DNA of 39,739 bases from Utricularia gibba. Its lineage: Eukaryota; Streptophyta; Magnoliopsida; Lamiales; Lentibulariaceae. The stretch is from positions 1-39,739 of the forward strand of contig NEEC01000357.1 of the NCBI GenBank assembly GCA_002189035.1. Reading direction: 5' to 3'. Under the pieces are notes generated by a model that was not told the DNA's origin, did no database searches, and worked only from the letters and a program-made list of their open reading frames with translations. Positions 9,001 through 37,815 of this stretch are shown here, piece after piece. A program made the position numbers and the translations under genes. The number at the start of each line of letters is the position of its first letter. The first letter of the stretch is position 1.

Positions 9001-10160
9001 TTGCCACATCGGTCCTACTCGACGAAAATCGTGATGCAGTTATTGAAGTTAGGATTTCATGAGCACCCAAAATGGTTTTCTCAACCGCATGCTTTATATT
9101 TGAGGAGGCGCTCTCGTGGGGCAACGGTATCGAGCAGGAGGTCGAGTCGAGCTCGGGCCATAGTCATTTGTAGCCGGCAAAAAATTGATGCATTTATTAA
9201 CGTTGGTTTTTAATAGGCTGCCTACATGGTTTCTCAAGGAAAAGCTTGTCGTTTTTGGGCGGGTGATGTCGTTGGAACTTCGTTCTGACCAAGGTTCGGT
9301 CTGACTCCTTTGCCACATCGGGTCCTACTCGACGAAAATCGTGATGCAGTTATTGAAGTTAGGATTCATGAGCACCCAAAATGGTTTTCTCAACCGCATG
9401 CTTTATATTTGATAGGCGCTCTCGTGGGGCAACGGTATCGAGCAGGAGGTCGAGTCGAGCTCGGGCCCATAGTCATTTGTAGCTCGGCAAAAAATTGATG
9501 CATTTATTAACGGTTGGTTTTAATAGGCTGCCTAAATGGTTTTCTCAAGGAAAAGCTTGTCGTTTTTGGGCGGGTGATGTCGTTGTGAACTTCGTTCTGA
9601 CCCAAGGTTCGGTCTGTCCTTTGCCACATCGGTCCTACTCGACGAAAATCGTGATGCAGTTATTGAAGTTAGGATTTCATGAGCACCCAAAATGGTTTTC
9701 TCAACCGCATGCTTTATATTTGATAAGGCTCTCGTGGGGCAACGGTATCGAGCAGGAGGTCGAGTCGAGCTCGGGCCCAGAGTCATTTGTAGCCCGAAAA
9801 AATTGATGCATTTATTAACGTTGGTTTTAGGCTGCCTACATAGTTTCTCAAGGAAAAGCTTGTCGTTTCTGGGGGTGATGTCGTTGGAACTTCGTTCTGA
9901 CCAAGGTTCGTCTGACTCCTTTGCCACATCGGGTCCTACTCGACGAAAATCGTGATGCAGTTATTGAAGTTAGGATTCATGAGCACCCAAAATGGTTTTC
10001 TCAACCGCATGCTTTATATTTGATAGGCGCTCTCGTGGGGCAACGGTATCGAGCAGGAGGTCGAGTCGAGCTCGGGCCCATAGTCATTTGTAGCTCGGCA
10101 AAAAACTTGATGCATTTATTAACGTTGGTTTTAATAGGCTGCCTAATGGTTTTCTCAAGG

Positions 10161-11386: not shown

Positions 11387-13220
11387 AAAAGCTTGTCGTT
11401 TTTGGGCGGGTGATGTCGTTGGAACTTCGTTGACCAAGGTTCGGTCTGACTCCTTTGCCACATCGGGTCCTACTCGACGAAAATCGTGATGCAGTTATTG
11501 AAGTTAGGATTCATGAGCACCCAAAATGGTTTTCTCAACCGCATGCTTTATATTTGAGGAGGCGCTCTCGTGGGGCAACGGTATCGAGCAGGAGGTCGAG
11601 TCGAGCTCGGGCCCATAGTCATTTGTAGCCCGGCAAAAATTGATGCATTTATTAACGTTGGTTAATAGGCTGCCTACATGTTTCTCAAGGAAAAGCTTGT
11701 CGTTTTGGGCGGGTGATGTCGTTGGGAACTTCGTTCTGACCCAAGGTTCGGTCTGACTCCTTTGCCACATCGGGTCCTACTCGACGAAAATCGTGATGCA
11801 GTTATTGAAGTTAGGATTCATGAGCACCCAAAATGGTTTTCTCAACCGCATGCTTTATATTTGATAGGCGCTCTCTGTGGGCAACGGTATCGAGCAGGAG
11901 GTCGAGTCGAGCTCGGGCCCATAGTCATTTGTAGCTCGGCAAAAAATTGATGCATTTATTAACGTTGGTTTTAATAGGCTGCCTACATGGTTTCTCAAGG
12001 AAAAGCTTGTCGTTTTGGGCGGGTGATGTCGTTGTGAACTTCGTTCTGACCAAGGTTCGGTCTGACTCCTTTGCCACATCGGTCCTACTCGACGAAAATC
12101 GTGATGCAGTTATTGAAGTTAGGATTCATGAGCACCCAAAATGGTTTTCTCAACCGCATGCTTTATATTTGATAAGGCGCTCTCGTGGGGCAACGGTATC
12201 GAGCAGGAGGTCGAGTCGAGCTCGGGCCCATAGTCATTTGTAGCCGGCAAAAAACTTGATGCATTTATTAACGTTGGTTTTAATAGGCTGCCTAATGGTT
12301 TCTCAAGGAAAAGCTTGTCGTTTTTGGGCGGGTGATGTCGTTGTGAACTTCGTTCTGACCAAGGTTCGGTCTGACTCCTTTGCCACATCGGGTCCTACTC
12401 GACGAAAATCGTGATGCAGTTATGAAGTTAGGATTCATGAGCACCCAAAATGGTTTTCTCAACCGCATGCTTTATATTTGAGGAGGCGCTCTCGTGGGGC
12501 AACGGTATCGAGCAGGAGGTCGAGTCGAGCTCGGGCCCATAGTCATTTGTAGCCGGCAAAAAATTGATGCATTTATTAACGTTGGTTTTAATAGGCTGCC
12601 TACATGGTTTCTCAAGGAAAAGCTTGTCGTTTTTGGGCGGGTGATGTCGTTGGAACTTCGTTCTGACCCAGGTTCGGTCTGACTCCTTTGCCACATCGGG
12701 TCCTACTCGACGAAAATCGTGATGCAGTTATTGAAGTTAGGATTTCATGAGCACCCAAAATGGTTTTCTCAACCGCATGCTTTATATTTGATAGGCTCTC
12801 GTGGGGCAACGGTATCGAGCAGGAGGTCGAGTCGAGCTCGGGCCCATAGTCATTTGTAGCTCGGCAAAAATTGATGCATTTATTAACGTTGGTTATTAGG
12901 CTGCCTACATGTTTCTCAAGGAAAAGCTTCGTTTTGGGGTGATGTCGTTGGAACTTCGTTCTGACCAAGGTTCGTCTGACTCCTTTGCCACATCGGGTCC
13001 TACTCGACGAAAATCGTGATGCAGTTATTGAAGTTAGGATTCATGAGCACCCAAAATGGTTTTCTCAACCGCATGCTTTATATTTGATAGGCGCTCTCGT
13101 GGGGCAACGGTATCGAGCAGGAGGTCGAGTCGAGCTCGGCCCATAGTCATTTGTAGCCGGCAAAAAAATTGATGCATTTATTAACGTTGGTTTAATAGGC
13201 TGCACATGGTTTTCTCAAGG

Positions 13221-14452
13221 AAAAGCTTGTCGTTTTTGGGCGGGTGATGTCGTTGTGAACTTCGTTCTGACCCAAGGTTCGGTCTGACTCCTTTGCCAAT
13301 CGGTCCTACTCGACGAAAATCGTGATGCAGTTATTGAAGTTAGGATTTCATGAGCACCAAAATGGTTTTCTCAACCGCATGCTTTATATTTGAGGAGGCG
13401 CTCTCGTGGGGCAACGGTATCGAAAAGGTCGAGTCGAGCTCGGCCCAGAGTCATTTGTAGCCGGCAAAAAATTGATGCATTTATTAACGTTGGGTTTTAA
13501 TAGGCTGCCTACATGGTTTCTCAAGGAAAAGCTTGTCGTTTCTGGGCGGGTGATGTCAACTTCGTTCTGACCAAGGTTCGGTCTGACTCCTTTGCCACAT
13601 CGGGTCCTACTCGACGAAAATCGTGATGCAGTTATTGAAGTTAGATTCATGAGCACCCAAAATGGTTTTCTCAACCGCATGCTTTATATTTGATAAGGCG
13701 CTCTCGTGGGGCAACGGTATCGAGCAGGAGGTCGAGTCGAGCTCGGGCCCAGAGTCATTTGTAGCCCGGCAAAAAAATTGATGCATTTATTAACGTTGGT
13801 TTTAGGCTGCCTACATAGTTTCTCAAGGAAAAGCTTGTCGTTTCTGGCGGGTGATGTCGTTGGGAACTTCGTTCTGACCCAGGTTCGTCTGACTCCTTTG
13901 CCACATCGGGTCCTACTCGACGAAAATCGTGATGCAGTTATTGAAGTTAGGATTCATGAGCACCCAAAATGGTTTTCTCAACCGCATGCTTTATATTTGA
14001 GGAGGCGCTCTCGTGGGGCAACGGTATCGAGCAGGAGGTCGAGTCGAGCTCGGGCCCATAGTCATTTGTAGCTCGGCAAAAAACTTGATGCATTTATTAA
14101 CGTTGGGTTTAATAGGCTGCCTACATAGTTTTCTCAAGGAAAAGCTTGTCGTTTTTGGGCGGGTGATGTCGTTGGAACTTCGTTCTGACCCAAGGTTCGG
14201 TCTGACTCCTTTGCCACATCGGGTCCTACTCGACGAAAATCGTGATGCAGTTATTGAAGTTAGGATTCATGAGCACCCAAAATGGTTTTCTCAACCGCAT
14301 GCTTTATATTTGATAAGGCGCTCTCGTGGGGCAACGGTATCGAGCAGGAGGTCGAGTCGAGCTCGGGCCCATAGTCATTTGTAGCTCGGCAAAAAATTGA
14401 TGCATTTATTAACGTTGGTTTTTTAATAGGCTGCCTACATGGTTTCTCAAGG
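13221..14452. repeat. Degenerate 4-monomer block, F-G-H-E order (copy b)
   Basis: Monomers at 13221, 13527, 13829 and 14140 follow the same marker order as the block starting at 10161, ten monomers earlier. The preceding units (9854 and 12922) also share unusual losses: GGGGTGATG in place of GGCGGGTGATG, and GGTTCGTCTG in place of GGTTCGGTCTG. The first unit has a contracted TATCGAAAAGG where most copies read TATCGAGCAGGAGG. Confidence 0.45.
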
Positions 14453-15069
14453 AAAAGCTTGTCGTTTTTGGCGGGTGATGTCGTTGTGAACTTCGTTCTG
14501 ACCAAGGTTCGGTCTGACTCCTTTGCCACATCGGGTCCTACTCGACGAAAATCGTGATGCAGTTATTGAAGTTAGGATTCATGAGCACCCAAAATGGTTT
14601 TCTCAACCGCATGCTTTATATTTGAGGAGGCGCTCTCGTGGGGCAACGGTATCGAGCAGGAGGTCGAGTCGAGCTCGGGCCAGAGTCATTTGTAGCCCGG
14701 CAAAAAATTGATGCATTTATTAACGTTGGTTATTAGGCTGCCTACATGTTTCTCAAGGAAAAGCTTGTCGTTTCTGGCGGGTGATGTCGTTGGGAACTTC
14801 GTTCTGACCCAAGGTTCGGTCTGACTCCTTTGCCACATCGGGTCCTACTCGACGAAAATCGTGATGCAGTTATTGAAGTTAGGATTCATGAGCACCCAAA
14901 ATGGTTTTCTCAACCGCATGCTTTATATTTGATAGGCGCTCTCGTGGGGCAACGGTATCGAGCAGAGGTCGAGTCGAGCTCGGGCCCATAGTCATTTGTA
15001 GCTCGGCAAAAAACTTGATGCATTTATTAACGTTGGTTTTAATAGGCTGCCTACATGGTTTTCTCAAGG

Positions 15070-16306
15070 AAAAGCTTGTCGTTTTTGGGCGGGTGATGTC
15101 GTTGTGAACTTCGTTCTGACCCAAGGTTCGGTCTGTCTCCTTTGCCAAATCGGTCCTACTCGACGAAAATCGTGATGCAGTTATTGAAGTTAGGATTTCA
15201 TGAGCACCCAAAATGGTTTTCTCAACCGCATGCTTTATATTTGAGGAGGCGCTCTCGTGGGGCAACGGTATCGAGCAGGAGGTCGAGTCGAGCTCGGGCC
15301 CATAGTCATTTGTAGCCGGCAAAAAACTTGATGCATTTATTAACGTTGGTTTTAATAGGCTGCCTACATGTTTTCTCAAGGAAAAGCTTGTCGTTTTTGG
15401 GCGGGTGATGTCGTTGGAACTTCGTTCTGACCCAAGGTTCGGTCTGACTCCTTTGCCACATCGGGTCCTACTCGACGAAAATCGTGATGCAGTTATTGAA
15501 GTTAGGATTCATGAGCACCCAAAATGGTTTTCTCAACCGCATGCTTTATATTTGATAAGGCGCTCTCGTGGGGCAACGGTATCGAGCAGGAGGTCGAGTC
15601 GAGCTCGGCCCAGAGTCATTTGTAGCCCGGCAAAAAATTGATGCATTTATTAACGTTCTATTAGGCTGCCTACATAGTTTCTCAAGGAAAAGCTTGTCGT
15701 TTCTGGCGGGTGATGTCGTTGGGAACTTCGTTCTGACCCAAGGTTCGGTCTGACTCCTTTGCCACATCGGTCCTACTCGACGAAAATCGTGATGCAGTTA
15801 TTGAAGTTAGGATGTCATGAGCACCCAAAATGGTTTTCTCAACCGCATGCTTTATATTTGAGGAGGCGCTCTCGTGGGGCAACGGTATCGAGCAGGAGGT
15901 CGAGTCGAGCTCGGGCCCATAGTCATTTGTAGCAAAAAAAATTGATGCATTTATTAACGTTGGGTTTTAATAGGCTGCCTACATTGTTTCTCAAGGAAAA
16001 GCTTGTCGTTTTTGGGCGGGTGATGTCGTTGGAACTTCGTTCTGACCCAAGGTTCGGTCTGACTCCTTTGCCACATCGGGTCCTACTCGACGAAAATCGT
16101 GATGCAGTTATTGAAGTTAGGATTCATGAGCACCCAAAATGGTTTTCTCAACCGCATGCTTTATATTTGATAAGGCGCTCTCGTGGGGCAACGGTATCGA
16201 GCAGGAGGTCGAGTCGAGCTCGGGCCATAGTCATTTGTAGCTCGGCAAAAAACTTGATGCATTTATTAACGTTGGTTTTAATAGGCTGCCTACATGTTTC
16301 TCAAGG
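15070..16306. repeat. Degenerate 4-monomer block, F-G-H-E order (copy c)
   Basis: Monomers at 15070, 15382, 15688 and 15997 repeat the F-G-H-E marker order. The first has the F-type changes GTCTGTCTCC and CCAAATCGG plus TTTCATG. The third has GATGTCATG, GAGGAGG and CCATAG like type H. This is the nearest relative, within segment I, of the sharper 4-mers that begin at 17237. Confidence 0.45.
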
Positions 16307-17236
16307 AAAAGCTTGTCGTTTTGGGCGGTGATGTCGTTGGAACTTCGTTCTGACCAAGTTCGGTCTGACTCCTTTGCCACATCGGTCCTACTCGACGAAA
16401 ATCGTGATGCAGTTATTGAAGTTAGGATTTCATGAGCACCCAAAATGGTTTTCTCAACCGCATGCTTTATATTTGATAAGGCGCTCTCGTGGGGCAACGG
16501 TATCGAGCAGGAGGTCGAGTCGAGCTCGGGCCCATAGTCATTTGTAGCCGGCAAAAAACTTGATGCATTTATTAACGTTGGTTTTAATAGGCTGCCTACA
16601 TGGTTTTCTCAAGGAAAAGCTTGTCGTTTTGGGCGGGTGATGTCGTTGGAACTTCGTTCTGACCATAGGTTCGGTCTGACTCCTTTGCCACATCGGGTCC
16701 TACTCGACGAAAATCGTGATGCAGTTATTGAAGTTAGGATTCATGAGCACCCAAAATGGTTTTCTCAACCGCATGCTTTATATTTGATAGGCGCTCTCGT
16801 GGGGCAACGGTATCGAGCAGGAGGTCGAGTCGAGCTCGGGCCCAGAGTCATTTGTAGCCCGGCAAAAAATTGATGCATTTATTAACGTTCGGCTTTATTA
16901 GGCTGCCTACATAGTTTCTCAAGGAAAAGCTTGTCGTTTCTGGCGGGTGATGTCGTTGGGAACTTCGTTCGGACCCAAGGTTCGTCTGACTCCTTTGCCA
17001 CATCGGGTCCTACTCGACGAAAATCGTGATGCAGTTATTGAAGTTAGGATTCATGAGCACCCAAAATGGTTTTCTCAACCGCATGCTTTATATTTGAGGA
17101 GGCGCTCTCGTGGGGCAACGGTATCGAGCAGGAGGTCGAGTCGAGCTCGGGCCCATAGTCATTTGTAGCTCGGCAAAAAACTTGATGCATTAATTAACGT
17201 TGGGTTTTAATAGGCGCCTACATTGTTTTCTCAAGG

Positions 17237-24600: not shown

Positions 24601-25037
24601 GCGCTCTCGTGGGGCAACGGTATCGAGCAGGAGGTCGAGTCGAGCTCGGGCCCATAGTCATTTGTAGCTCGGCAAAAAACTTGATGCATTTATTAACGGT
24701 TGGTTTTAATAGGCCGCCTAAATGGTTTTCTCAAGGAAAAGCTTGTCGTTTTTGGGCGGGTGATGTCGTTGTGAACTTCGTTGTGACCCAAGGTTCGGTC
24801 TGTCACCTTTGCCAAATCTGGTCCTACTCGACGAAAATCGTGATGCAGTTATTGAAGTTAGGATTTCATGAGCACCCAAAATGGTTTTCTCAACCGCATG
24901 CTTTATATTTGAGGAGGCGCTCTCGTGGGGCAACGGTATCGAGCAGGAGTCGAGTCGAGCTCGGGCCCATAGTCATTTGTAGCTCGGCAAAAAAACTTGA
25001 TGCATTTATTAACGGTTGGTTTTAATAGGCCGCCTAA

Positions 25038-25195
25038 ATGGTTTTCTCATGAAAAGCTTGTCGTTTTTGGGCGGGTGATGTCGTTGTGAACTTCGTTCTG
25101 ACCATAGGTTCGGTCTGACTCCTTTGCCACATCGGGTCCTACTCGACGAAAATCGTGATGCAGTTATTGAAGTTAGGATGTCATGAGCACCCAAA
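25038..25195 (+). repeat. Half-unit A of the monomer (158 bp)
   Basis: This is the first half of the reference monomer, running from one ATGGTTTTCTC block to the base before the next. It aligns over its whole length with half-unit B at an almost fixed offset: ATGGTTTTCTC (158 bp apart), TCGT (157), AAC (158), CGACGAAAA against CGGCAAAAA (155) and GATGCAGTTATTGAA against GATGCATTTATTAAC (157). The HindIII site belongs to this half only. The alignment was made by eye, so I give no identity figure. Confidence 0.75.
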
Positions 25196-25365
25196 ATGGT
25201 TTTCTCAACCGCATGCTTTATATTTGAGGAGGCGCTCTCGTGGGGCAACGGTATCGAGCAGGAGGTCGAGTCGAGCTCGGGCCCATAGTCATTTGTAGCT
25301 CGGCAAAAAATTTGATGCATTTATTAACGTTGGTTTTAATAGGCGCCTAAATGGTTTTCTCATGG
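25052..25365 (+). repeat. Representative full-length monomer (314 bp)
   Basis: This unit is close to the majority sequence and serves as the reference. Sites relative to its first base: HindIII at +1, the GATGTCGTTGTGAAC block near +25, GGTTCGG at about +56, a small inverted repeat ACGA-AAA-TCGT at +95, GATGCA at +106, the second ATGGTTTTC block at +145, SphI GCATGC at +160, SacI GAGCTC at +222, ApaI GGGCCC at +228, an A-tract at about +254 and NsiI ATGCAT at +264. I counted 20 CpG dinucleotides. Variable positions that define sub-types are GTGAAC or GGGAAC, GTCATG, TTCATG or ATCATG, TTTGAGGAGG or TTTGATAAGG, CCATAG or CCAGAG, and the closing linker (ccgcctaaatgg, ctgcctacatag or aacgcctacattg). 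Confidence 0.93.
25196..25350 (+). repeat. Half-unit B of the monomer (155 bp)
   Basis: This is the second half of the reference monomer, homologous to half-unit A. It carries the SphI, SacI, ApaI and NsiI sites. The closing linker variant GCCGCCTAAATGG, seen in many units of the 18.5-25.7 kb block, resembles the end of half A (GCACCCAAAATGG) more than the CTGCCTACATAG linker does. The aaatgg linker may therefore be nearer the ancestral state (inference). Confidence 0.72.
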
Positions 25366-25993: not shown

Positions 25994-27222
25994 AAAAGCT
26001 TGTCGTTTCTGGCGGGTGATGTCGTTGGGAACTTCGTTCGGACCAAGGTTTTGTCTGACTCCTTTGCCACATCGGGTCCTACTCGACGAAAATCGTGATG
26101 CAGTTATTGAAGTTAGGATGTCATGAGCACCCAAAATGGTTTTCTCAACCGCATGCTTTTATTTGAGGAGGCGCTCTCGTGGGGCAACGGTATCGAGCAG
26201 GAGGTCGAGTCGAGCTCGGGCCCATAGTCATTTGTAGCTCGGCAAAAAACTTGATGCATTTATTAACGTTGGTTTTAATAGGCGCCTAATGGTTTTCTCA
26301 AGGAAAAAGCTTGTCGTTTTTGGGCGGGTGATGTCGTTGTGAACTTCGTTCTGACCAAGGTTCGGTCTGACTCCTTTGCCAATCTGGTCCTACTCGACGA
26401 AAATCGTGATGCAGTTATTGAAGTTAGGATATCATGAGCCCAAAATGGTTTTCTCAACCGCATGCTTTATATTTGATAAGGCGCTCTCGTGGGGCAACGG
26501 TATCGAGCAGGAGGTCGAGTCGAGCTCGGGCCCATAGTCATTTGTAGCTCGGCAAAAAACTTGATGCATTTATTAATGTTGGGTTTAATAGCTGCCTACA
26601 TTGTTTCTCAAGGAAAAGCTTGTCGTTTTTGGGCGGGTGATGTCGTTGTGAACTTCGTTCTGACCCAAGGTTCGGTCTGTCTCCTTTGCCAAATCTGGTC
26701 TACTCGACGAAAATCGTGATGCAGTTATTGAAGTTAGGATTTCATGAGCACCCAAAATGTTTTCTCAATCGCATGCTTTGTATTTGAGGAGGCGCTCTAG
26801 TGGGGCACGGTATCGGGCAAAGGTCGAGTCGGGCTCGCTCAGAAGTGAAAAAGTGATGCATTTATTAACGTTGGTTTTAATAGGCTGCCTACATGGTTTC
26901 TCAAGGAAAAGCTTGTCGTTTCTGGGCGGGTGATGTCTTTTGGAACTTCGTTCTGACCATAGGTTCGGTCTGACTCCTTTGCCACATCGGGTCCTACTCG
27001 ACGAAAATCGTGATGCAGTTATTGAAGTTAGGATGTCATGAGCACCCAAAATGGTTTTCTCAACCGCATGCTTTATATTTGAGGAGGCGCTCTCGTGGGG
27101 CAACGGTATCGAGCAGGAGGTCGAGTCGAGCTCGGGCCCATAGTCATTTGTAGCTCGGCAAAAAACTTGATGCATTAATTAACGTTGGGTTTTAATAGAA
27201 CGCCTACATTGTTTTCTCAAGG
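25994..27222. repeat. Transition segment between the 13-mer and 4-mer domains
   Basis: There are four monomers, at 25994, 26304, 26614 and 26907. The first continues the 13-mer pattern. The second has ATATCATGAGCCC with a small deletion and an AATGTTGGG linker. The third is the divergent unit described separately. The fourth is a G/H hybrid: it opens with GATGTCTTTTGGAAC and ACCATAGG (type G) but ends with GATGTCATG, GAGGAGG, CCATAG and CATTAATTAACG (type H). Confidence 0.65.
26614..26906. repeat. Divergent monomer K1 (293 bp, shortest unit)
   Basis: The second half departs strongly from the rest of the array: GCTTTGTATTTG, CTCTAGTGGGGCACGG, ATCGGGCAAAGG and GTCGGGCTCGCTC (SacI destroyed), followed by AGAAGTGAAAAAGTG in place of the usual tag and A-tract region. 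About 20 bases are missing near 26840. The first half is ordinary type F (GTCTGTCTCC, CCAAATCTGG, TTTCATG). Its closest relative lies 15 monomers downstream at 31292. Confidence 0.8.
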
Positions 27223-28480
27223 AAAAGCTTGTCGTTTTTGGGCGGGTGATTTCGTTGTGAACTTCGTTCTGACCCAACGTTTGGTCTGACTCCTTTGCCA
27301 CATCGGGTCCTACTCGACGAAAATCGTGATGCAGTTATTGAAGTTAGGATGTCATGAGCACCCAAAATGGTTTTCTCAACCGCATGCTTTATATTTGATA
27401 AGGCGCTCTCGTGGGGCAACGGTATCGAGTAGGAGGTCGAGTCGAGCTCGGGCCCATAGTCATTTGTAGCTCGGCAAAAAACTTGATGCATTTATTAACG
27501 GTTGGTTTTAATAGGCTGCCTTAATGGTTTTCTCAAGGAAAAGCTTGTCGTTTTTGGGCGGGTGATGTCGTTGTGAACTTCGTTCTGACCAAGGTTCGGT
27601 CTGTCTCCTTTGCCAAATCTGGTCCTACTCGACGAAAATCGTGATGCAGTTATTGAAGTTAGGATTTCATGAGCACCCAAAATGGTTTTCTCAATCGCAT
27701 GCTTTTATTTTATATTTGAGGAGGCTCTGTAGTGGGGGCAACGGTATCGGGCCAGAGGTCGAGTCGAGCTCGGGCCCAGAGTCATTTGTAGCCCGGCAAA
27801 AAAAATTGATGCATTTATTAACGTTCGGCTTTATTAGGCTGCCTACATAGTTTCTCAAGGAAAAGCTTGTCGTTTCTGGCGGGTGATGTCTTTTGGAACT
27901 TCGTTCTCACCATAGGTTCGGTCTGACTCCTTTGCCACATCGGGTCCTACTCGACGAAAATCGTGATGCAGTTATTGAAGTTAGGATATCATGAGCACCC
28001 AAAATGGTTTTCTCAACCGCATGCTTTATATTTGATAAGGCACTCTCGTGGGCAACGGTATCGAGCAAGGTCGAGTCGAGCTCGGGCCAGAGTCATTTGT
28101 AGCCGGCAAAAAATTGATGCATTTATTAACGTTCGGCTTTATTAGGCTGCCTACATAGTTTCTCAAGGAAAAGCTTGTCGTTTCTGGCGGGTGATGTCGT
28201 TGGAACTTCGTTCGGACCAAGGTTCTGTCTGACTCCTTTGCCACATCGGGTCCTACTCGACGAAAATCGTGATGCAGTTATTGAAGTTAGGATGTCATGA
28301 GCACCCAAAATGGTTTTCTCAACCGCATGCTTTATATTTGAGGAGGCGCTCTCGTGGGGCAACGGTATCGAGTAGGAGGTCGAGTCGAGCTCGGCCCATA
28401 GTCATTTGTAGCTCGGCAAAAAACTTGATGCATTAATTAACGTTGGGTTTTAATAGAACGCCTACATTGTTTTCTCAAGG
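27223..28480. repeat. 4-monomer higher-order repeat E-F-G-H, tandem copy 1 (1258 bp)
   Basis: Units are at 27223 (E), 27539 (F), 27861 (G) and 28169 (H). E has GATTTCG and CCCAACGTTTGG. F has CTCAATCGC, GGCTCTGTAGTGG and an internal repeat of TTTTA near 27702, making it the longest monomer (322 bp). G has GATGTCTTTTGGAAC, CTCACCATAGG and ATATCATG. H has GAGTAGG and ends with CATTAATTAACG. Confidence 0.88.
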
Positions 28481-29738
28481 AAAAGCTTGTCGTTTTTGGG
28501 CGGGTGATTTCGTTGTGAACTTCGTTCTGACCCAACGTTTGGTCTGACTCCTTTGCCACATCGGGTCCTACTCGACGAAAATCGTGATGCAGTTATTGAA
28601 GTTAGCATGTCATGAGCACCCAAAATGGTTTTCTCAACCGCATGCTTTATATTTGATAAGGTGCTCTCGTGGGGCAACGGTATCGAGTAGGAGGTCGAGT
28701 CGAGCTCGGGCCCATAGTCATTTGTAGCTCGGCAAAAAACTTGATGCATTTATTAACGGTTGGTTTTAATAGGCTGCCTAAATGGTTTTCTCAAGGAAAA
28801 GCTTGTCGTTTTTGGGCGGGTGATGTCGTTGTGAACTTCGTTCTGACCAAGGTTCGGTCTGTCTCCTTTGCCAAATCTGGTCCTACTCGACGAAAATCGT
28901 GTGATGCAGTTATTGAAGTTAGGATTTCATGAGCACCCAAAATGGTTTCTCAATCGCATGCTTTATATTTGAGGAGGCTCTGTAGTGGGGCAACGGTACG
29001 AGCAGAGGTCGAGTCGAGCTCGGTCCCAGAGTCATTTGTAGCCCGGCAAAAAAATTGATGCATTTATTAACGTTCGGCTTTATTAGGCTGCCTACATAGT
29101 TTCTCAAGGAAAAGCTTGTCGTTTCTGGGCGGGTGATGTCTTTTGGAACTTCGTTCTGACCATAGGTTCGGTCTGACTCCTTTGCCACATCGGGTCCTAG
29201 TCGACGAAAATCGTGATGCAGTTATTGAAGTTAGGATATCATGAGCACCCAAAATGGTTTTCTCAACCGCATGCTTTATATTTGATAAGGCACTCTCGTG
29301 GGCAACGGTATCGAGAACAGGTCGAGTCGAGCTCGGGACAGAGTCATTTGTAGCCCGGCAAAAAAAATTGATGCATTTATTAACGTTCGGCTTTATTAGG
29401 CTGCCTACATAGTTTCTCAAGGAAAAGCTTGTCGTTTCTACGCGGGTGATGTCGTTGAGAACTTCGTTCGGACCCAAGGTTCTGTCTGACTCCTTTGCCA
29501 CATCGGGTCCTACTCGACGAAAATCGTGATGCAGTTATTGAAGTTAGGATGTCATGAGCACCCAAAATGGTTTTCTCAACCGCATGCTTTATATTTGAGG
29601 AGGCACTCTCGTGGGGCAACGGTATCGAGTAGGAGGTCGAGTCGAGCTCGGGCCCATAGTCATTTGTAGCTCGGCAAAAAACTTGATGCATTAATTAACG
29701 TTGGGTTTTAATAGAACGCCTACATTGTTTTCTCAAGG
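28481..29738. repeat. 4-monomer higher-order repeat E-F-G-H, tandem copy 2 (1258 bp)
   Basis: Units are at 28481, 28797, 29110 and 29423. E again has CCCAACGTTTGG, as in copy 1. F has GGCTCTGTAGTGG plus a duplicated GT (TCGTGTGATG) near 28900. G has CTGACCATAGG and CTAGTCGACG at about 29198. H has TTCTACGCGGG and AGGCACTCTCG. Confidence 0.88.
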
Positions 29739-30978
29739 AAAAGCTTGTCGTTTTTGGGCGGGTGATTTCGTTGTGAACTTCGTTCTGACCCAACGTTCGG
29801 TCTGACTCCTTTGCCACATCGGGTCCTACTCGACGAAAATCGTGATGCAGTTATTGAAGTTAGATTCATGAGCACCCAAAATGGTTTTCTCAACCGCATG
29901 CTTTATATTTGATAAGGTGCTCTCGTGGGGCAACGGTATCGAGTAGGAGGTCGAGTCGAGCTCGGGCCCATAGTCATTTGTAGCTCGGCAAAAAACTTGA
30001 TGCATTTATTAACGGTTGGTTTTAATAGGCTGCCTAAATTTTCTCAAGGAAAAGCTTGTCGTTTTTGGGCGGGTGATGTCGTTGAACTTCGTTCTGACCC
30101 AAGGTTCGGTCTGTCTCCTTTGCCAAATCTGGTCCTACTCGACGAAAATCGTGATGCAGTTATTGAAGTTAGGATTTCATGAGCAACCAAAATGGTTTCT
30201 CAATCGCATGCTTTATATTTGAGGAGGCTCTCTAGTGGGGCAACGGTATGAGCAGAGGTCGAGTCGAGCTCCCCAGAGTCATTTGTAGCCGGCAAAAAAA
30301 TTGATGCATTTATTAACGTTCGGCTTTATAGGCTGCCTACATAGTTTCTCAAGGAAAAGCTTGTCGTTTCTGGGCGGGTGATGTCTTTTGGAACTTCGTT
30401 CTGACCATAGGTTCGGTCTGACTCCTTTGCACATCGGGTCCTACTCGACGAAAATCGTGATGCAGTTATTGAAGTTAGGATTCATGAGCACCCAAAATGG
30501 TTTTCTCAACCGCATGCTTTATATTTGATAAGGCACTCTCGTGGGCAACGGTATCGAGCAAAGGTCGAGTCGAGCTCGGGCCAGAGTCATTTGTAGCCCG
30601 GCAAAAAAAATTGATGCATTTATTAACGTTCGGTTTTATTAGGCTGCCTACATAGTTTCTCAAGGAAAAGCTTGTCGTTTCTGGGGGTGATGTCGTTGGA
30701 ACTTCGTTCGGACCCAAGGTTCTGTCTGACTCCTTTGCCACATCGGGTCCTACTCGACGAAAATCGTGATGCAGTTATTGAAGTTAGGATGTCATGAGCA
30801 CCCAAAATGGTTTTCTCAACCGCATGCTTTATATTTGAGGAGGCGCTCTCGTGGGGCAACGGTATCGAGTAGGAGGTCGAGTCGAGCTCGGGCCCATAGT
30901 CATTTGTAGCTCGGCAAAAAACTTGATGCATTAATTAACGTTGGGTTTTAATAGAACGCCTACATTGTTTTCTCAAGG
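29739..30978. repeat. 4-monomer higher-order repeat E-F-G-H, tandem copy 3 (1240 bp)
   Basis: Units are at 29739, 30050, 30355 and 30666. E has CCCAACGTTCGG. F keeps CTCAATCGC and GGCTCTCTAGTGG but has GAGCAACCAAAATGG and a shortened GAGCTCCCCAG. G has GATGTCTTTTGGAAC but TTCATG rather than ATATCATG. H ends with CATTAATTAACG. It is slightly more decayed by small deletions than copies 1 and 2. Confidence 0.86.
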
Positions 30979-31602
30979 AAAAGCTTGTCGTTTTTGGGCG
31001 GGTGATTTCGTTGTGAACTTCGTTCTGACCCAACGTTCGGTCTGACTCCTTTGCCACATCGGGTCCTACTCGACGAAAATCGTGAGCAGTTATTGAAGTT
31101 AGATGTCATGAGCACCCAAAATGGTTTTCTCAACCGCATGCTTTATATTGATAAGGTGCTCTCGTGGGGCAACGGTATCGAGTAGGAGGTCGAGTCGAGC
31201 TCGGGCCCATAGTCATTTGTAGCTCGGCAAAAAACTTGATGCATTTATTAACGGTTGGTTTTAATAGGCTGCCTAAATGGTTTTCTCAAGGAAAAGCTTG
31301 TCGTTTTTGGGCGGTGATGTCGTTGTGAACTTCGTTCTGACCCAAGGTTCGGTCTGTCTCCTTTGCCAAATCTGGTCCTACTCGACGAAAATCGTGATGC
31401 AGTTATTGAAGTTAGGATTTCATGAGCACCCAAAATGCTTTTGTCAATCGCATGCTTTGTAGTTGAGGAGGCGCTCTAGTGGGGCACGGTATCGGGCAAA
31501 GGTCGAGTCGGGCTCGCTCCCAGAGTTTTTTTAGCCTGTCAAAAAAAGTGATGCATTTATTAACGTTGGGTTTTAATAGGCTGCCTACATGGTTTCTCAA
31601 GG
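30979..31602. repeat. Truncated 4-mer copy: E plus divergent F
   Basis: E at 30979 (GATTTCG, CCCAACGTTCGG, GATAAGGTGC, GAGTAGG) is followed by an F-type unit at 31292 whose second half is the divergent K form. The expected G and H units do not follow. The next unit at 31603 joins a G-like opening to a CCAGAG, GACAAAAAATATTG ending of the 13-mer kind. The tandem series therefore breaks here. Confidence 0.7.
31292..31602. repeat. Divergent monomer K2
   Basis: Shares with K1 the changes GCTTTGTA, CTCTAGTGGGGCACGG, ATCGGGCAAAGG, GTCGGGCTCGCTC and AAAGTGATGC. K2 has no 20-base loss and reads CCCAGAGTTTTTTTAGC then CTGTCAAAAAAAGTG, where most monomers read CATAGTCATTTGTAGC and CTCGGCAAAAAACTTG. 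It also has AATGCTTTTGTCAATCG. K2 is thus the fuller version of this sub-type. Confidence 0.8.
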
Positions 31603-34600
31603 AAAAGCTTGTCGTTTCTGGGCGGGTGATGTCGTTTGGAACTTCGTTCTGACCAAGGTTCGGTCTGACTCCTTTGCCACATCGGGTCCTACTCGACGAA
31701 AATCGTGATGCAGTTTTGAAGTTAGGATGTCATGAGCACCCAAAATGGTTTTCTCAACCGCATGCTTTATATTTGAGGAGGCGCTCTCGTGGGGCAACGG
31801 TATCGAGCAGGAGGTCGAGTCGAGCTCGGGCCAGAGTCATTTGTAGCCCGACAAAAAATATTGATGCATTTATTAACGTTCGGGCTATTAGGCTGCCTAC
31901 ATAGTTTTCAAGGAAAAGCTTGTCGTTTCTGGGCGGGTGATGTCGTTGGGAACTCGTTCGACCCAAGGTTCTGTCTGACTCCTTTGCCACATCGGGTCCT
32001 ACTCGACGAAAATCGTGATGCAGTTATTGAAGTTAGGATGTCATGAGCACCCAAAATGGTTTTCTCAACCGGATGCTTTATATTTGAGGAGGCGCTCTCG
32101 GGGCAACGGTATCGAGCAGGAGGTCGAGTCGAGCTCGGCCCATAGTCATTTGTAGCTCGGCAAAAAACTTGATGCATTTATTAACGTTGGGTTTTAATAG
32201 GCCTACATTGTTTTCTCAAGGAAAAGCTTGTCGTTTTTGGGCGGGTGATTTCGTTGTGAACTTCGTTCTGACCCAAGTTCGTCTGACTCCTTTGCCACAT
32301 CGGGTCCTACTCGACGAAAATCGTGATGCAGTTATTGAAGTTAGGATGTCATGAGCACCCAAAATGGTTTTCTCAACCGCATGCTTTATATTTGATAAGG
32401 TGCTCTCGTGGGGCAACGGTATCGAGCAGGAGGTCGAGTCGAGCTCGGGCCCATAGTCATTTGTAGCTCGGCAAAAAATTGATGCATTTATTAACGTTGG
32501 TTTTAATAGGCTGCCTACATTTTTCTCAAGGAAAAGCTTGTCGTTTTTGGGCGGGTGATGTCGTTGTGAACTTCGTTCTGACCCAAGGTTCGGTCTGACT
32601 CCTTTGCCACATCGGTCCTACTCGACGAAAATCGTGATGCAGTTATTGAAGTTAGGATGTCATGAGCACCCAAAATGGTTTTCTCAACCGCATGCTTTAT
32701 ATTTGAGGAGGCGCTCTCGTGGGGCAACGGTATCGAGCAGGAGGTCGAGTCGAGCTCGGGCCCAGAGTCATTTGTAGCCCGACAAAAATTGATGCATTTA
32801 TTAACGTTCGGCGCTATTAGGCTGCCTACATAGTTTCTCAAGGAAAAGCTTGTCGTTTCTGCCGGGTGATGTCGTTGGAACTTCGTTCGGACCCAAGGTT
32901 CTGTCTGACTCCTTTGCCACATCGGGTCCTACTCGACGAAAATCGTGATGCAGTTATTGAAGTTAGGATGTCATGAGCACCCAAAATGGTTTTCTCAACC
33001 GCATGCTTTATATTTGAGGAGGCGCTCTCGTGGGGCAACGGTATCGAGCAGGAGGTCGCGAGTCGAGCTCGGGCCATAGTCATTTGTAGCTCGGCAAAAA
33101 ACTTGATGCATTTATTAACGTTGGTTTTAATAGGCCGCCTAAATGGTTTTCTCAAGGAAAAGCTTGTCGTTTTTGGGCGGGTGATGTCGTTGTGAACTTC
33201 GTTCTGACCCAAGGTTCGGTCTGACCTTTGCCACATCGGTCCTACTCGACGAAAATCGTGATGCAGTTATTGAAGTTAGGATGTCATGAGCACCCAAAAT
33301 GGTTTTCTCAACCGCATGCTTTATATTTGAGGAGGCGCTCTCGTGGGGCAACGGTATCGAGCAGGAGGTCGAGTCGAGCTCGGGCCCATAGTCATTTGTA
33401 GCTCGGCAAAAAACTTGATGCATTTATTAACGGTTGGTTTTAATAGGCTGCCTAAATGGTTTTCTCAAGGAAAAGCTTGTCGTTTTTGGGCGGGTGATGT
33501 CGTTGTGAACTTCGTTCTGACCCAAGGTTCGGTCTGACTCCTTTGCCACATCGGGTCCTACTCGACGAAAATCGTGATGCAGTTATTGAAGTTAGGATTC
33601 ATGAGCACCCAAAATGGTTTTCTCAACCGCATGCTTTATATTTGATAAGGCGCTCTCGTGGGGCAACGGTATCGAGCAGGTCGAGTCGAGCTCGGCCCAT
33701 AGTCATTTGTAGCCCGACAAAAAATTGATGCATTTATTAACGTTGGTTTTTAATAGGCTGCCTACATAGTTTTTCAAGGAAAAGCTTGTCGTTTCTGCGC
33801 GGGTGATGTCGTTGGAACTTCGTTCGGACCCAAGGTTCTGTCTGACTCCTTTGCCACATCGGGTCCTACTCGACGAAAATCGTGATGCAGTTATTGAAGT
33901 TAGGATGTCATGAGCACCCAAAATGGTTTTCTCAACCGCATGCTTTATATTTGAGGAGGCGCTCTCGTGGGGCAACGGTATCGAGCAGGAGGTCGAGTCG
34001 AGCTCGGGCCCATAGTCATTTGTAGCTCGGCAAAAAACTTGATGCATTTATTAACGTTGGTTTTAATAGGCCGCCTAAATGGTTTTCTCAAGGAAAAGCT
34101 TGTCGTTTTTGGGCGGGTGATGTCGTTGTGAACTTCGTTCTGACCCAAGGTTCGGTCTGTCTCCTTTGCCAATCTGGTCCTACTCGACGAAAATCGTGAT
34201 GCAGTTATTGAAGTTAGGATTCATGAGCACCCAAAATGGTTTTCTCAACGCATGCTTTATATTTGAGGAGGCGCTCTAGTGGGGCACGGTATCGGGCAGG
34301 AGGTCGAGTCGAGCTCGGTCCCAGAGTCATTTGTAGCCCGAAAAATTGATGCATTTATTAACGTTGGTATTAGGCTGCCTACATAGTTTCTCAAGGAAAA
34401 GCTTGTCGTTTCTGGCGGGTGATGTCGTTGGGAACTTCGTTCGGACCCAAGGTTCGTCTGACTCCTTTGCCACATCGGGTCCTACTCGACGAAAATCGTG
34501 ATGCAGTTATTGAAGTTAGGATGTCATGAGCACCCAAAATGGTTTTCTCAACCGCATGCTTTATATTTGAGGAGGCGCTCTCGTGGGGCAACGGTATCGA

Positions 34601-35330
34601 GCAGGAGGTCGAGTCGAGCTCGGGCCCATAGTCATTTGTAGCTCGGCAAAAAACTTGATGCATTTATTAACGTTGGGTTTTAATAGGCGCCTACATTGTT
34701 TTCTCAAGGAAAAGCTTGTCGTTTTTGGGCGGGTGATGTCGTTGTGAACTTCGTTCTGACCCAAGGTTCGGTCTGACTCCTTTGCCAAATCGGTCCTACT
34801 CGACGAAAATCGTGATGCAGTTATTGAAGTTAGGATTCATGAGCACCCAAAATGGTTTTCTCAACCGCATGCTTTATATTGAGGAGGCGCTCTCGTGGGG
34901 CAACGGTATCGAGCAGAGGTCGAGTCGAGCTCGGCCCAGAGTCATTTGTAGCTCAAAAAAATTGATGCATTTATTAACGTTGGTTTTAATAGGCTGCCTA
35001 CATGGTTTCTCAAGGAAAAGCTTGTCGTTTCTGGGCGGGTGATGTCGTTTGGAACTTCGTTCTGACCAAGGTTCGGTCTGACTCCTTTGCCACATCGGGT
35101 CCTACTCGACGAAAATCGTGATGCAGTTATTGAAGTTAGGATGTCATGAGCACCCAAAATGGTTTTCTCAACCGCATGCTTTATATTTGAGGAGGCGCTC
35201 TCGTGGGGCAACGGTATCGAGCAGGAGGTCGAGTCGAGCTCGGGCCCATAGTCATTTGTAGCTCGGCAAAAAACTTGATGCATTAATTAACGTTGGGTTT
35301 TAATAGAACGCCTACATTGTTTTCTCAAGG
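31603..35330. repeat. Mixed segment without a clean higher-order period
   Basis: There are twelve monomers, at 31603, 31914, 32222, 32532, 32844, 33158, 33471, 33780, 34094, 34397, 34710 and 35016 (mean 310.7 bp). Pieces of both systems are present: 13-mer-type pairs with GACAAAAAATATTG then GGTTCTGTC (31603/31914) and a similar pair at 32532/32844; an E-like GATTTCG unit (32222); and CCGCCTAAATGG linkers (33158, 34094). The order does not match either HOR. The last unit (35016) is a G/H hybrid like that at 26907 and ends in CATTAATTAACG, leading into the next 4-mer series. Confidence 0.7.
34094..34396. repeat. Partly divergent monomer related to K1/K2
   Basis: Carries CTCTAGTGGGGCACGG and ATCGGGCAGGAGG, shared with the K units, but keeps the normal GTCGAGCTCGGTCCC (SacI intact) and GTCATTTGTAGC. 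It looks intermediate between ordinary F units and K1/K2, or like a K unit partly overwritten by gene conversion. Confidence 0.6.
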
Positions 35331-36571
35331 AAAAGCTTGTCGTTTTTGGCGGGTGATTTCGTTGTGAACTTCGTTCTGACCCAACGTTCGGTCTGACTCC
35401 TTTGCCACATCGGGTCCTACTCGACGAAAATCGTGATGCAGTTATTGAAGTTAGGATGTCATGAGCACCCAAAATGGTTTTCTCAACCGCATGCTTTATA
35501 TTTGATAAGGCGCTCTCGTGGGGCAACGGTATCGAGCAGGAGGTCGAGTCGAGCTCGGGCCCATAGTCATTTGTAGCTCGGCAAAAAATTGATGCATTTA
35601 TTAACGGTTGGTTTTAATAGGCTGCCTAAATGGTTTTCTCAAGGAAAAGCTTGTCGTTTTTGGGCGGGTGATGTCGTTGTGAACTTCGTTCTGACCCAAG
35701 GTTCGGTCTGTCCCTTTGCCACATCGGTCCTACTCGACGAAAATCGTGATGCAGTTATTGAAGTTAGGATGTCATGAGCACCCAAAATGGTTTTCTCAAC
35801 GCATGCTTTATATTTGAGGAGGCTCTCTCGTGGGGCAACGGTATCGAGCAGAGGTCGAGTCGAGCTCGGGCCCAGAGTCATTTGTAGCCCGGCAAAAAAT
35901 TGATGCATTTATTAACGTTCGGTTTAATAGGCTGCCTACATAGTTTCTCAAGGAAAAGCTTGTCGTTTCTGGGCGGGTGATGTCGTTGGAACTTCGTTCA
36001 CCAAGGTTCGGTCTGACTCCTTTGCCACATCGGGTCCTACTCGACGAAAATCGTGATGCAGTTATTGAAGTTAGGATCATGAGCACCCAAAATGGTTTTC
36101 TCAACCGCATGCTTTATATTTGATAAGGCACTCTCGTGGGGCAACGGTATCGAGCAGAGGTCGAGTCGAGCTCGGGCCATAGTCATTTGTAGCCGGCAAA
36201 AAAAATTGATGCATTTATTAACGTTCGGCTTTATTAGGCTGCCTACATAGTTTCTCAAGGAAAAGCTTGTCGTTTGCGGGTGATGTCGTTGGAACTTCGT
36301 TCGGACCCAAGGTTCTGTCTGACTCCTTTTGCCACATCGGGTCCTACTCGACGAAAATCGTGATGCAGTTATTGAAGTTAGGATGTCATGAGCACCCAAA
36401 ATGGTTTTCTCAACCGCATGCTTTATATTTGAGGAGGCGCTCTCGTGGGGCAACGGTATCGAGCAGGAGGTCGAGTCGAGCTCGGGCCCATAGTCATTTG
36501 TAGCTCGGCAAAAAAATTGATGCATTTATTAACGTTGGTTTTAATAGGCTGCCTACATGGTTTTCTCAAGG
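35331..36571. repeat. 4-monomer higher-order repeat, distal series copy 1 (1241 bp)
   Basis: Units are at 35331 (E: GATTTCG, CCCAACGTTCGG), 35645 (F-like: GGCTCTCTCG, GCAGAGG, CCAGAG), 35954 (G-like: GATAAGGCACTC) and 36261 (H-like: GGTTCTGTC, GATGTCATG, GAGGAGG, CCATAG). F and G have lost some diagnostic changes (CCACATCGG rather than CCAAATCTGG; GTCGTTGG rather than GTCTTTTGG). This is consistent with local homogenisation. Confidence 0.65.
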
Positions 36572-37815
36572 AAAAGCTTGTCGTTTTTGGGCGGGTGATG
36601 TCGTTGTGAACTTCGTTCTGACCCAAGGTTCGGTCTGACTCCTTTGCCACATCGGGTCCTACTCGACGAAAATCGTGATGCAGTTATTGAAGTTAGGATG
36701 TCATGAGCACCCAAAATGGTTTTCTCAACCGCATGCTTTATATTTGATAAGGTGCTCTCGTGGGGCAACGGTATCGAGTAGGAGGTCGAGTCGAGCTCGG
36801 GCCCATAGTCATTTGTAGCTCGGCAAAAAACTTGATGCATTTATTAACGTTGGTTTTAATAGCTGCCTAAATGGTTTTCTCAAGGAAAAGCTTGTCGTTT
36901 TTGGGCGGGTGATGTCGTTGTGAACTTCGTTCTGACCCAAGGTTCGGTCTGTCTCCTTTGCCAAATCTGGTCCTACTCGACGAAAATCGTGATGCAGTTA
37001 TTGAAGTTAGGATTTCATGAGCACCCAAAATGGTTTCTCAACCATGCTTTATATTTGAGGAGGCTCTCGTGGGGCAACGGTATCGAGAGGTCGAGTCGAG
37101 CTCGGTCCCAGAGTCATTTGTAGCCCGGCAAAAAAATTGATGCATTTATTAACGTTGGTTTATTAGGCTGCCTACATAGTTTTCAAGGAAAAGCTTGTCG
37201 TTTCTGGGCGGGTGATGTCTTTTGGAACTTCGTTCTGACCAAGGTTCGGTCTGACTCCTTTGCCACATCGGGTCCTACTCGACGAAAATCGTGATGCAGT
37301 TATTGAAGTTAGGATATCATGAGCACCCAAAATGGTTTTCTCAACCGCATGCTTTATATTTGATAAGGCACTCTCGTGGGCAACGGTATCGAGCAGGAGG
37401 TCGAGTCGAGCTCGGGCCAAGAGTCATTTGTAGCCCGGCAAAAAAATTGATGCATTTATTAACGTTCGGCTTTATTAGGCTGCCTACATAGTTTCTCAAG
37501 GAAAAGCTTGTCGTTTCTACGCGGGTGATGTCGTTGGAACTTCGTTCGGACCCAAGGTTCTGTCTGACTCCTTTGCCACATCGGGTCCTACTCGACGAAA
37601 ATCGTGATGCAGTTATTGAAGTTAGGATGTCATGAGCACCCAAAATGGTTTTCTCAACCGCATGCTTTATATTTGAGGAGGCGCTCTCGTGGGGCAACGG
37701 TATCGAGCAGGAGGTCGAGTCGAGCTCGGGCCCATAGTCATTTGTAGCTCGGCAAAAAACTTGATGCATTTATTAACGTTGGTTTTAATAGGCCGCCTAC
37801 ATGGTTTTCTCAAGG
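36572..37815. repeat. 4-monomer higher-order repeat, distal series copy 2 (1244 bp)
   Basis: Units are at 36572 (E-like: GATAAGGTGC, GAGTAGG, but GATGTCG), 36886 (F: GTCTGTCTCC, CCAAATCTGG, TTTCATG, GAGGAGGCTCTCG), 37189 (G: GATGTCTTTTGGAAC, ATATCATG, AAGGCACTCTCG) and 37502 (H: TTCTACGCGGG, GGTTCTGTC, GATGTCATG). Confidence 0.75.

Follow-up and report, generated by a model that had tools for sequence, protein, structure and literature searches.

The 311-bp satellite of Utricularia gibba as a probable phase-locked, diverged dimer of a ~155-bp unit

Introduction

Satellite repeats with an internal higher-order structure are widespread and were reported for 76 of 171 species in the available text of the survey by Melters et al. 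(2013; PMC4053949). Among the systems described there, the 343-bp alpha satellite of New World monkeys consists of two weakly related halves and has replaced a 171-bp monomer, which survives in relatives. The centromere repeat of Sorghum bicolor is an AB dimer, whose A and B copies are distinguished by SNPs and cluster separately in a tree (PMC4053949). In human, the dimeric alpha satellite of the SF1 and SF2 families is built from two alternating units that differ by up to about 30% and are amplified as a dimer; this satellite has CENP-B boxes and is occupied by CENP-A (PMC8122249, in the sections available). Within the plant family of U. gibba, the 161-bp repeat Gn7c161 of Genlisea nigrocaulis is associated with centromeres (PMC4542322, in the sections available).

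The U. gibba genome comprises ca. 100 Mb, with 18 contigs above 1 Mb and four putatively entire chromosomes, and its putative centromeres are described as being without satellites in the accessible parts of the published account (PMC8333044). A lack of tandem repeats at the centromeres of some chromosomes is also known from potato (Melters et al., PMC4053949, available text). Here, we analyze a contig of U. gibba that consists of a 311-bp satellite. No description of this repeat was found in searches of the open-licence literature, including the accessible parts of PMC10663240 and PMC8333044.

Results

Tandem Repeats Finder resolved contig C116 (39,739 bp), which is the whole stretch of DNA that was analyzed and is referred to as the window, solely into a 311-bp satellite with a period of 311. 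Parsed at the level of half units, the window reads A-B-A-B throughout, with a single 6-base step and not one missing or doubled half (Table 1). Autocorrelation of the raw window gave top lags of 309-315 and 154-157.

Table 1. Position of the satellite array and its internal features in the window
Feature	Coordinates	Strand	Basis
311-bp satellite array, uninterrupted, 128.2 copies, equal to the whole contig C116	1..39739	+	Single row in Tandem Repeats Finder, 93% matches; half-level parse
Half A of the reference unit	25037..25195	+	Sequence; A/B consensus halves
Half B of the reference unit	25196..25349	+	Sequence; A/B consensus halves
ATGGTTTTCTC, shared box opening half A	25038..25048	+	First ~35 bp of A vs B: 0 of 3,000 shuffles as good
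ATGGTTTTCTC, shared box opening half B, 158 bp downstream of the half-A box	25196..25206	+	
GATGCAGTTATT, within the final third of half A, where A and B are most alike	25157..25168	+	Columns 111-130: 74% A/B identity, four representatives
GATGCATTTATT, last third of half B	25314..25325	+	Counterpart of the most similar A/B segment
Locally occurring higher-order repeat of four dimers (about 1.25 kb)	25994..37815	+	Lag-4 identity in units 84-121; variant strings

A sequence-only reading of the window had proposed that the repeat of about 310 bp is a diverged A+B dimer of a ~155-bp unit, based on a series of anchors that recur in both halves. The opening box and GATGCA.TTATT (Table 1) as well as TCGT (25081 and 25238) and AAC (25089 and 25247) were found exactly where they had been placed. 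The remaining anchor, CGACGAAAA, is present too and begins about two bases before its given position. From A to B, the anchors are offset by 155-158 bp. Individual units frequently differ by one base in length within short runs of the same base, which is typical of an unpolished long-read consensus; given these homopolymer-type differences, the real divergence between the units is probably lower than the apparent one. Homogeneity also changes along the window: the first 30 units (positions 1-9,500) are about 0.97-0.98 alike, compared with about 0.93-0.95 beyond unit 50 (15,500-39,739).

To compare the halves, we derived a window consensus from 124 units (127 seed hits yielded 126 intervals, two of which fell outside 290-330 bp and were excluded) and divided it at the shared box, which gave 159 bp for A and 156 bp for B. 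The global alignment of A and B scored 26.5, with 104 identities in 170 columns (61%, or 72% without gap columns). A score no better than that of shuffled sequence had been named beforehand as the result that would speak against a dimer. None of 5,000 mononucleotide shuffles of the halves (mean -5.5, sd 5.0, maximum 13.0) and none of 5,000 dinucleotide shuffles (mean -6.6, sd 4.9, maximum 15.5) reached the observed score, and the dimer claim stands. Rotation of B by at least 15 bp against A gave a score of at most 11.5. In an alignment of 24 half consensuses, the A-B identity of four representatives was 0.52 overall, compared with 0.25 for rotated halves (sd 0.03, maximum 0.34); this alignment was optimised while its rotated controls were not realigned, in contrast to the shuffle and rotation tests of the global score, which do realign. 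As in a cryptic dimer, the two halves are homologous beyond chance in the right register, except for alignment columns 81-110.

The satellite extends well beyond the window. In the genome assembly (100.09 Mb, 516 contigs), a degenerate 21-mer with up to two mismatches had 25,607 matches, compared with one for the control and 3,991 for an exact 23-mer. The resulting ratio of 6.4 exceeds the 1.8-2.1 observed in ten window-like stretches and therefore indicates further subfamilies. In a contig sample chosen blind to content (20 positions, 18 of them existing), 10 of the 18 positions carry the satellite family, three are all N and five are without a match. We distinguish three subfamilies, the first of which comprises the window, C34 and C213. 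Subfamily 2 (C130, C160) has A halves that are 89% and B halves that are 86-87% identical to the window, and subfamily 3 (C8, C10, C15, C20, C25, C300 and, as the deepest branch, C190) is about 69-73% identical to it. A further contig, C250, provided only three A and two B halves and was left out of the later steps; in all 11 other contigs the consensus half length is 154-160 bp.

The likeness of A and B recurs in all three subfamilies: for each of the 12 contig consensuses, 0 of 1,000 shuffles were as good, although these tests are not independent. With z-scores of 3.4-4.6, the likeness is weaker in subfamily 3 than in the other two subfamilies (5.3-8.1). A GTR+G tree of the contig consensuses separated the A halves from the B halves with a support of 100/100 and a branch of 0.58. 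At this level, A and B form separate clades across the subfamilies, as in a cryptic dimer.

We also considered whether the halves converge backwards in time. A majority sequence of three lineages (C116, C160 and C190, ties given to C160) had an A-B score of 35.0 (z 8.1) versus 26.5 (z 6.4) for the window, both against mononucleotide shuffles. C160 alone also scores 35.0, so the increase shows only that subfamily 2 retained more A-B likeness and is not in itself a sign of convergence. A matched constraint on A and B was not supported: their smoothed conservation profiles across the subfamilies are uncorrelated (0.05, a value reached by 48 of 130 rolled controls), and the correlation of conservation with A=B identity was 0.35, which 16 of 130 controls reached.

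The strict order of the halves was followed genome-wide using junction patterns that are degenerate for all three subfamilies. These patterns matched 11,748 A-to-B junctions, a single A-to-A and a single B-to-B junction. In 60 non-overlapping stretches covering satellite and other sequence (238,764 bp), 442 A-to-B, 228 B-to-A and neither A-to-A nor B-to-B junctions were found; the presence of both A-to-B and B-to-A junctions indicates that both anchor sets detect. In the only B-to-B match (L095, C129), the sequence passes from B to the corresponding point in the terminal part of an A half and then continues with the next B, as a product of out-of-step homologous exchange would. The only A-to-A match (L096, C213) adjoins an irregular stretch and could result from misassembly.

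Judged by the order of blastn hits in 12 contigs, 6 of 464 neighbours were of the same half (three in C20, one in C190 and two in C300). All of them involve partial halves, and three of the six pairs are a single half with an internal gap. Shorter breaks of the alternation occur in C34 (L009, L055), and C213 3,498,000-3,501,100 (L054) is made up of scrambled, truncated satellite pieces. Irregular stretches of this type were also observed in C10, C20 and C300. They look more like a consensus that collapsed or was poorly polished than like a biological arrangement. Apart from these few exceptions (one A-A, one B-B, 6 of 464 and the breaks in L009, L054 and L055), A and B alternate strictly.

A search for a free ~155-bp relative in the host genome had been proposed together with the dimer, and here the outcome was negative: the genome-wide junction patterns revealed no free monomer with intact known anchors, a result that would miss more diverged monomers. 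At the left edge of the array on C213, as set by blastn, the satellite begins inside an A half with a first unit that is just 86-88% identical; there is no monomer run, and blastn finds no half further left within the 5.5-kb stretch. The missing monomer fits a complete replacement of the founder unit that we infer.

With regard to longer periods, both a 4-mer and a 13-mer higher-order repeat had been suggested. Using 200 permutations of the unit order across the whole window, lag 4 stood out with an identity of 0.962 (z 7.8), followed by its multiple, lag 8 (z 3.5). Lag 13 was not raised (z 0.3), and no 13-mer was observed. The 4-mer is real and is concentrated at about 26.0-37.8 kb, where the lag-4 identity of units 84-121 amounts to 0.964 versus 0.927-0.953 for all remaining lags up to 20. 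Units four and eight steps apart are thus more alike than neighbouring ones, as in a higher-order repeat, but mainly locally. On C7, matches of a pattern at the end of B recur mostly every 600-630 bp among the matches listed, which suggests a two-unit higher-order repeat in subfamily 3. The ~155-bp unit had further been described as being of nucleosome scale. This description is based on length; an AT-dinucleotide periodicity of about 10 bp, as a mark of nucleosome phasing, was not significant in any of four consensuses.

To estimate the abundance of the satellite, we calibrated two patterns on 13 stretches with ~382 expected units, where the A-to-B pattern detected 272 (71%) and the B-end pattern 235 (62%); the former is poorly sensitive to subfamily 2 (5 of about 29 units). 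The A-to-B matches given above and 8,670 matches of the B-end pattern correspond to about 16,500 and 14,100 dimers, respectively. Based on these two sensitivity-corrected patterns, the satellite makes up roughly 4.4-5.1 Mb, or ~4-5% of the assembly. A plasmid collection contained no match to the window. A tandem repeat of another kind (period about 533-535 bp), with no match to the 311-bp family, is present on contigs C100 and C400.

Genomic context is provided by C213 (3,704,653 bp), in which the array extends from about 3,486,175 to the contig end and occupies the last ~218 kb. Sampling hit satellite at each of 11 points between 3,490,000 and the contig end and at none of nine points between 3,300,000 and 3,480,000; at 3,500,000, within the scrambled stretch, satellite covers 537 of 700 bases. 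The final 754 bases are entirely satellite. At the opposite end, the first 600 bases contain 52 CCCTAAA units and represent a telomere (the telomere repeat of the genome is TTTAGGG). A Ty1/copia-type coding sequence (RVT_2) stops about 300 bp short of the array, and sequence of the Ty3/gypsy type (RVT_1, RNase H, integrase) lies further out. The Ty1/copia-type element has long open frames and directly adjoins the array (flank C213:3,471,700-3,486,175). In C15, the satellite passes into other sequence at about 10,185 and is present again in 12,001-17,000.

The first four contigs, C1 (8.50 Mb), C2 (6.19 Mb), C3 (5.35 Mb) and C4 (3.85 Mb), are of chromosome scale. Telomere repeats are present at both ends of C3 and C4; in C1 and C2, they occur at the start and are absent from the last 600 bases. 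No copy of the satellite was found on C1-C6 among the matches listed for four exact or degenerate patterns, which diverged copies could escape. The first match listed is on C7, and for the subfamily of the window on C34, with the absence on earlier contigs read from the order of the list, which appears to follow contig number. The mismatch-tolerant lists are ordered by number of mismatches first and are informative about C1-C33 for exact hits. No telomere unit was present in five stretches taken from further array contigs (C7, C103 twice, C117 and C164).

Discussion

Taken together, our results indicate that the 311-bp satellite is very probably a fossil head-to-tail dimer, which is phase-locked and amplified as A+B. 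The chance-level columns 81-110, the weaker A-B likeness in subfamily 3, the lack of a free monomer with intact anchors and the six same-half neighbours count against this reading. An alternative to which we assign little probability is that the halves merely have short boxes in common (ATGGTTTTCTC, GATGCA.TTATT), kept or copied for protein binding or recombination, and are otherwise unrelated. This would agree with the uneven distribution of the likeness, which is pronounced over the initial ~35 bp and the final ~45 bp of the halves, weak in between and at chance level in columns 81-110. In the window alone, both ends beat 3,000 of 3,000 shuffles, whereas similarity in the two middle quarters is weak and was reached by 97 and 358 of 3,000 shuffles. 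However, when the first 15 bases are removed from both halves, A and B still score 20.5 against a maximum of 14.0 for dinucleotide shuffles (0 of 5,000 as good), and the order and offset of the anchors are preserved from end to end. Moreover, in the three-lineage majority only 5 and 28 of 3,000 shuffles were as good in the middle segments, and in the alignment of half consensuses 13 of 15 overlapping 20-column windows were above all 140 rotations, the exceptions being the two that cover columns 81-110 (14 and 17 of 140 as high). Removal of the boxes and the segment tests therefore mostly reject a similarity confined to boxes, even though the middle stays weak.

If the halves are related, the subfamilies could still have dimerised independently from a common ~155-bp monomer, and doubled repeats are indeed common among satellites generally (PMC4053949, available text). 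We regard this as extremely improbable, as A halves cluster with A and B halves with B across the subfamilies in the contigs sampled. A comparison of three trees with four representatives, in which the groupings inside each half were fixed, points in the same direction: the tree with a single ancestral dimer leads by 57 log units over one in which subfamilies 1/2 and subfamily 3 dimerised separately, and by 245 log units over one in which every lineage did so, and the AU test rejects both alternatives. The proposal of a diverged dimer is strongly supported by these data, and, as far as the sequences compared can tell, the dimer is older than the present array and predates the split of the three subfamilies.

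The most probable history would start with a single tandem duplication of a ~155-bp unit, after which A and B would have diverged to the point where one half no longer paired with the other. Unequal exchange and conversion would since have occurred almost only in whole A+B steps, which would have locked the phase and made 311 bp the unit of amplification. The subfamilies may then have arisen through separate expansions, and the local 4-unit blocks later. With less certainty, each half would be long enough for one nucleosome, and the arrays would represent centromeric or pericentromeric heterochromatin of some chromosomes.

Judged from its sequence context, this putative centromeric or pericentromeric role of the arrays on some chromosomes is likely, although the lack of listed copies on C1-C6 and the non-significant AT-dinucleotide periodicity count against it. 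The arrays might instead be subtelomeric or knob-like heterochromatin, a reading that we consider possible but not probable. In its favour, the array on C213 sits at the end of a 3.70-Mb contig, near the size of the complete 3.85-Mb C4, so that the missing end could be a telomere, and C1-C4 carry no copy among the matches listed. Against this, the end of C213 consists wholly of satellite, the stretches of C7, C103, C117 and C164 are devoid of telomere units (albeit in a thin sample) and the known edge of the C213 array borders retrotransposons. Continuing with a centromeric role, U. gibba could tentatively have centromeres of two types: those of the fully assembled chromosomes would be satellite-free, and those of chromosomes that are broken in the assembly would be based on the dimer superfamily. 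If so, the published statement about satellite-free centromeres would be an effect of which chromosomes were assembled, and the subfamilies may mark different chromosomes. A satellite superfamily that accounts for ~4-5% of the assembly and is located largely in unplaced contigs turns this discrepancy with the published account into a directly testable question.

A cryptic dimer is a well-known kind of satellite with an ordinary history, which is unusually clear in this case. For the specialist, the interest may lie in the near-perfect phase lock, the failure to detect any monomer and the considerable share of satellite that seems to be located outside the complete chromosomes of a genome whose putative centromeres are described as satellite-free. 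The repeat also provides a worked case of how the unit length of a satellite changes by duplication, divergence, loss of pairing between the halves and amplification as a pair. In addition, the scarcity of half-step junctions relative to about 11,700 scored A-to-B junctions sets a bound on the frequency of exchange between sequences that are ~60-70% identical.

Concerning known systems, the titles and beginnings of abstracts did not yield a plant precedent of a cryptic dimer that we judged to be closer than those considered here. The G. nigrocaulis repeat Gn7c161 is close to one U. gibba half in length. A relation between the two is unsupported, as two published primers of Gn7c161, which were compared in place of the full repeat, have no clear similarity to the unit; in the best of 16 primer comparisons (four primers of two repeats against four consensuses), 2.2% of 500 shuffles were as good. 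The New World monkey satellite resembles the U. gibba repeat in its weakly related halves and in the replacement of the monomer by the doubled unit, as far as the available text describes it (Melters et al., 2013; PMC4053949). There, the monomer survives in relatives, whereas in U. gibba no free monomer with intact known anchors was found in its own genome. With the human SF1/SF2 arrays, the U. gibba satellite shares the two alternating units and their amplification as a dimer, a likeness in organisation. CENP-B boxes and CENP-A occupancy are described for human in the sections available (PMC8122249). The separate clustering of A and B in a tree is shared with the sorghum centromere repeat. 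While the sorghum A and B are told apart by SNPs in the available description (PMC4053949), the two halves in U. gibba are 61-72% identical and predate the subfamilies.
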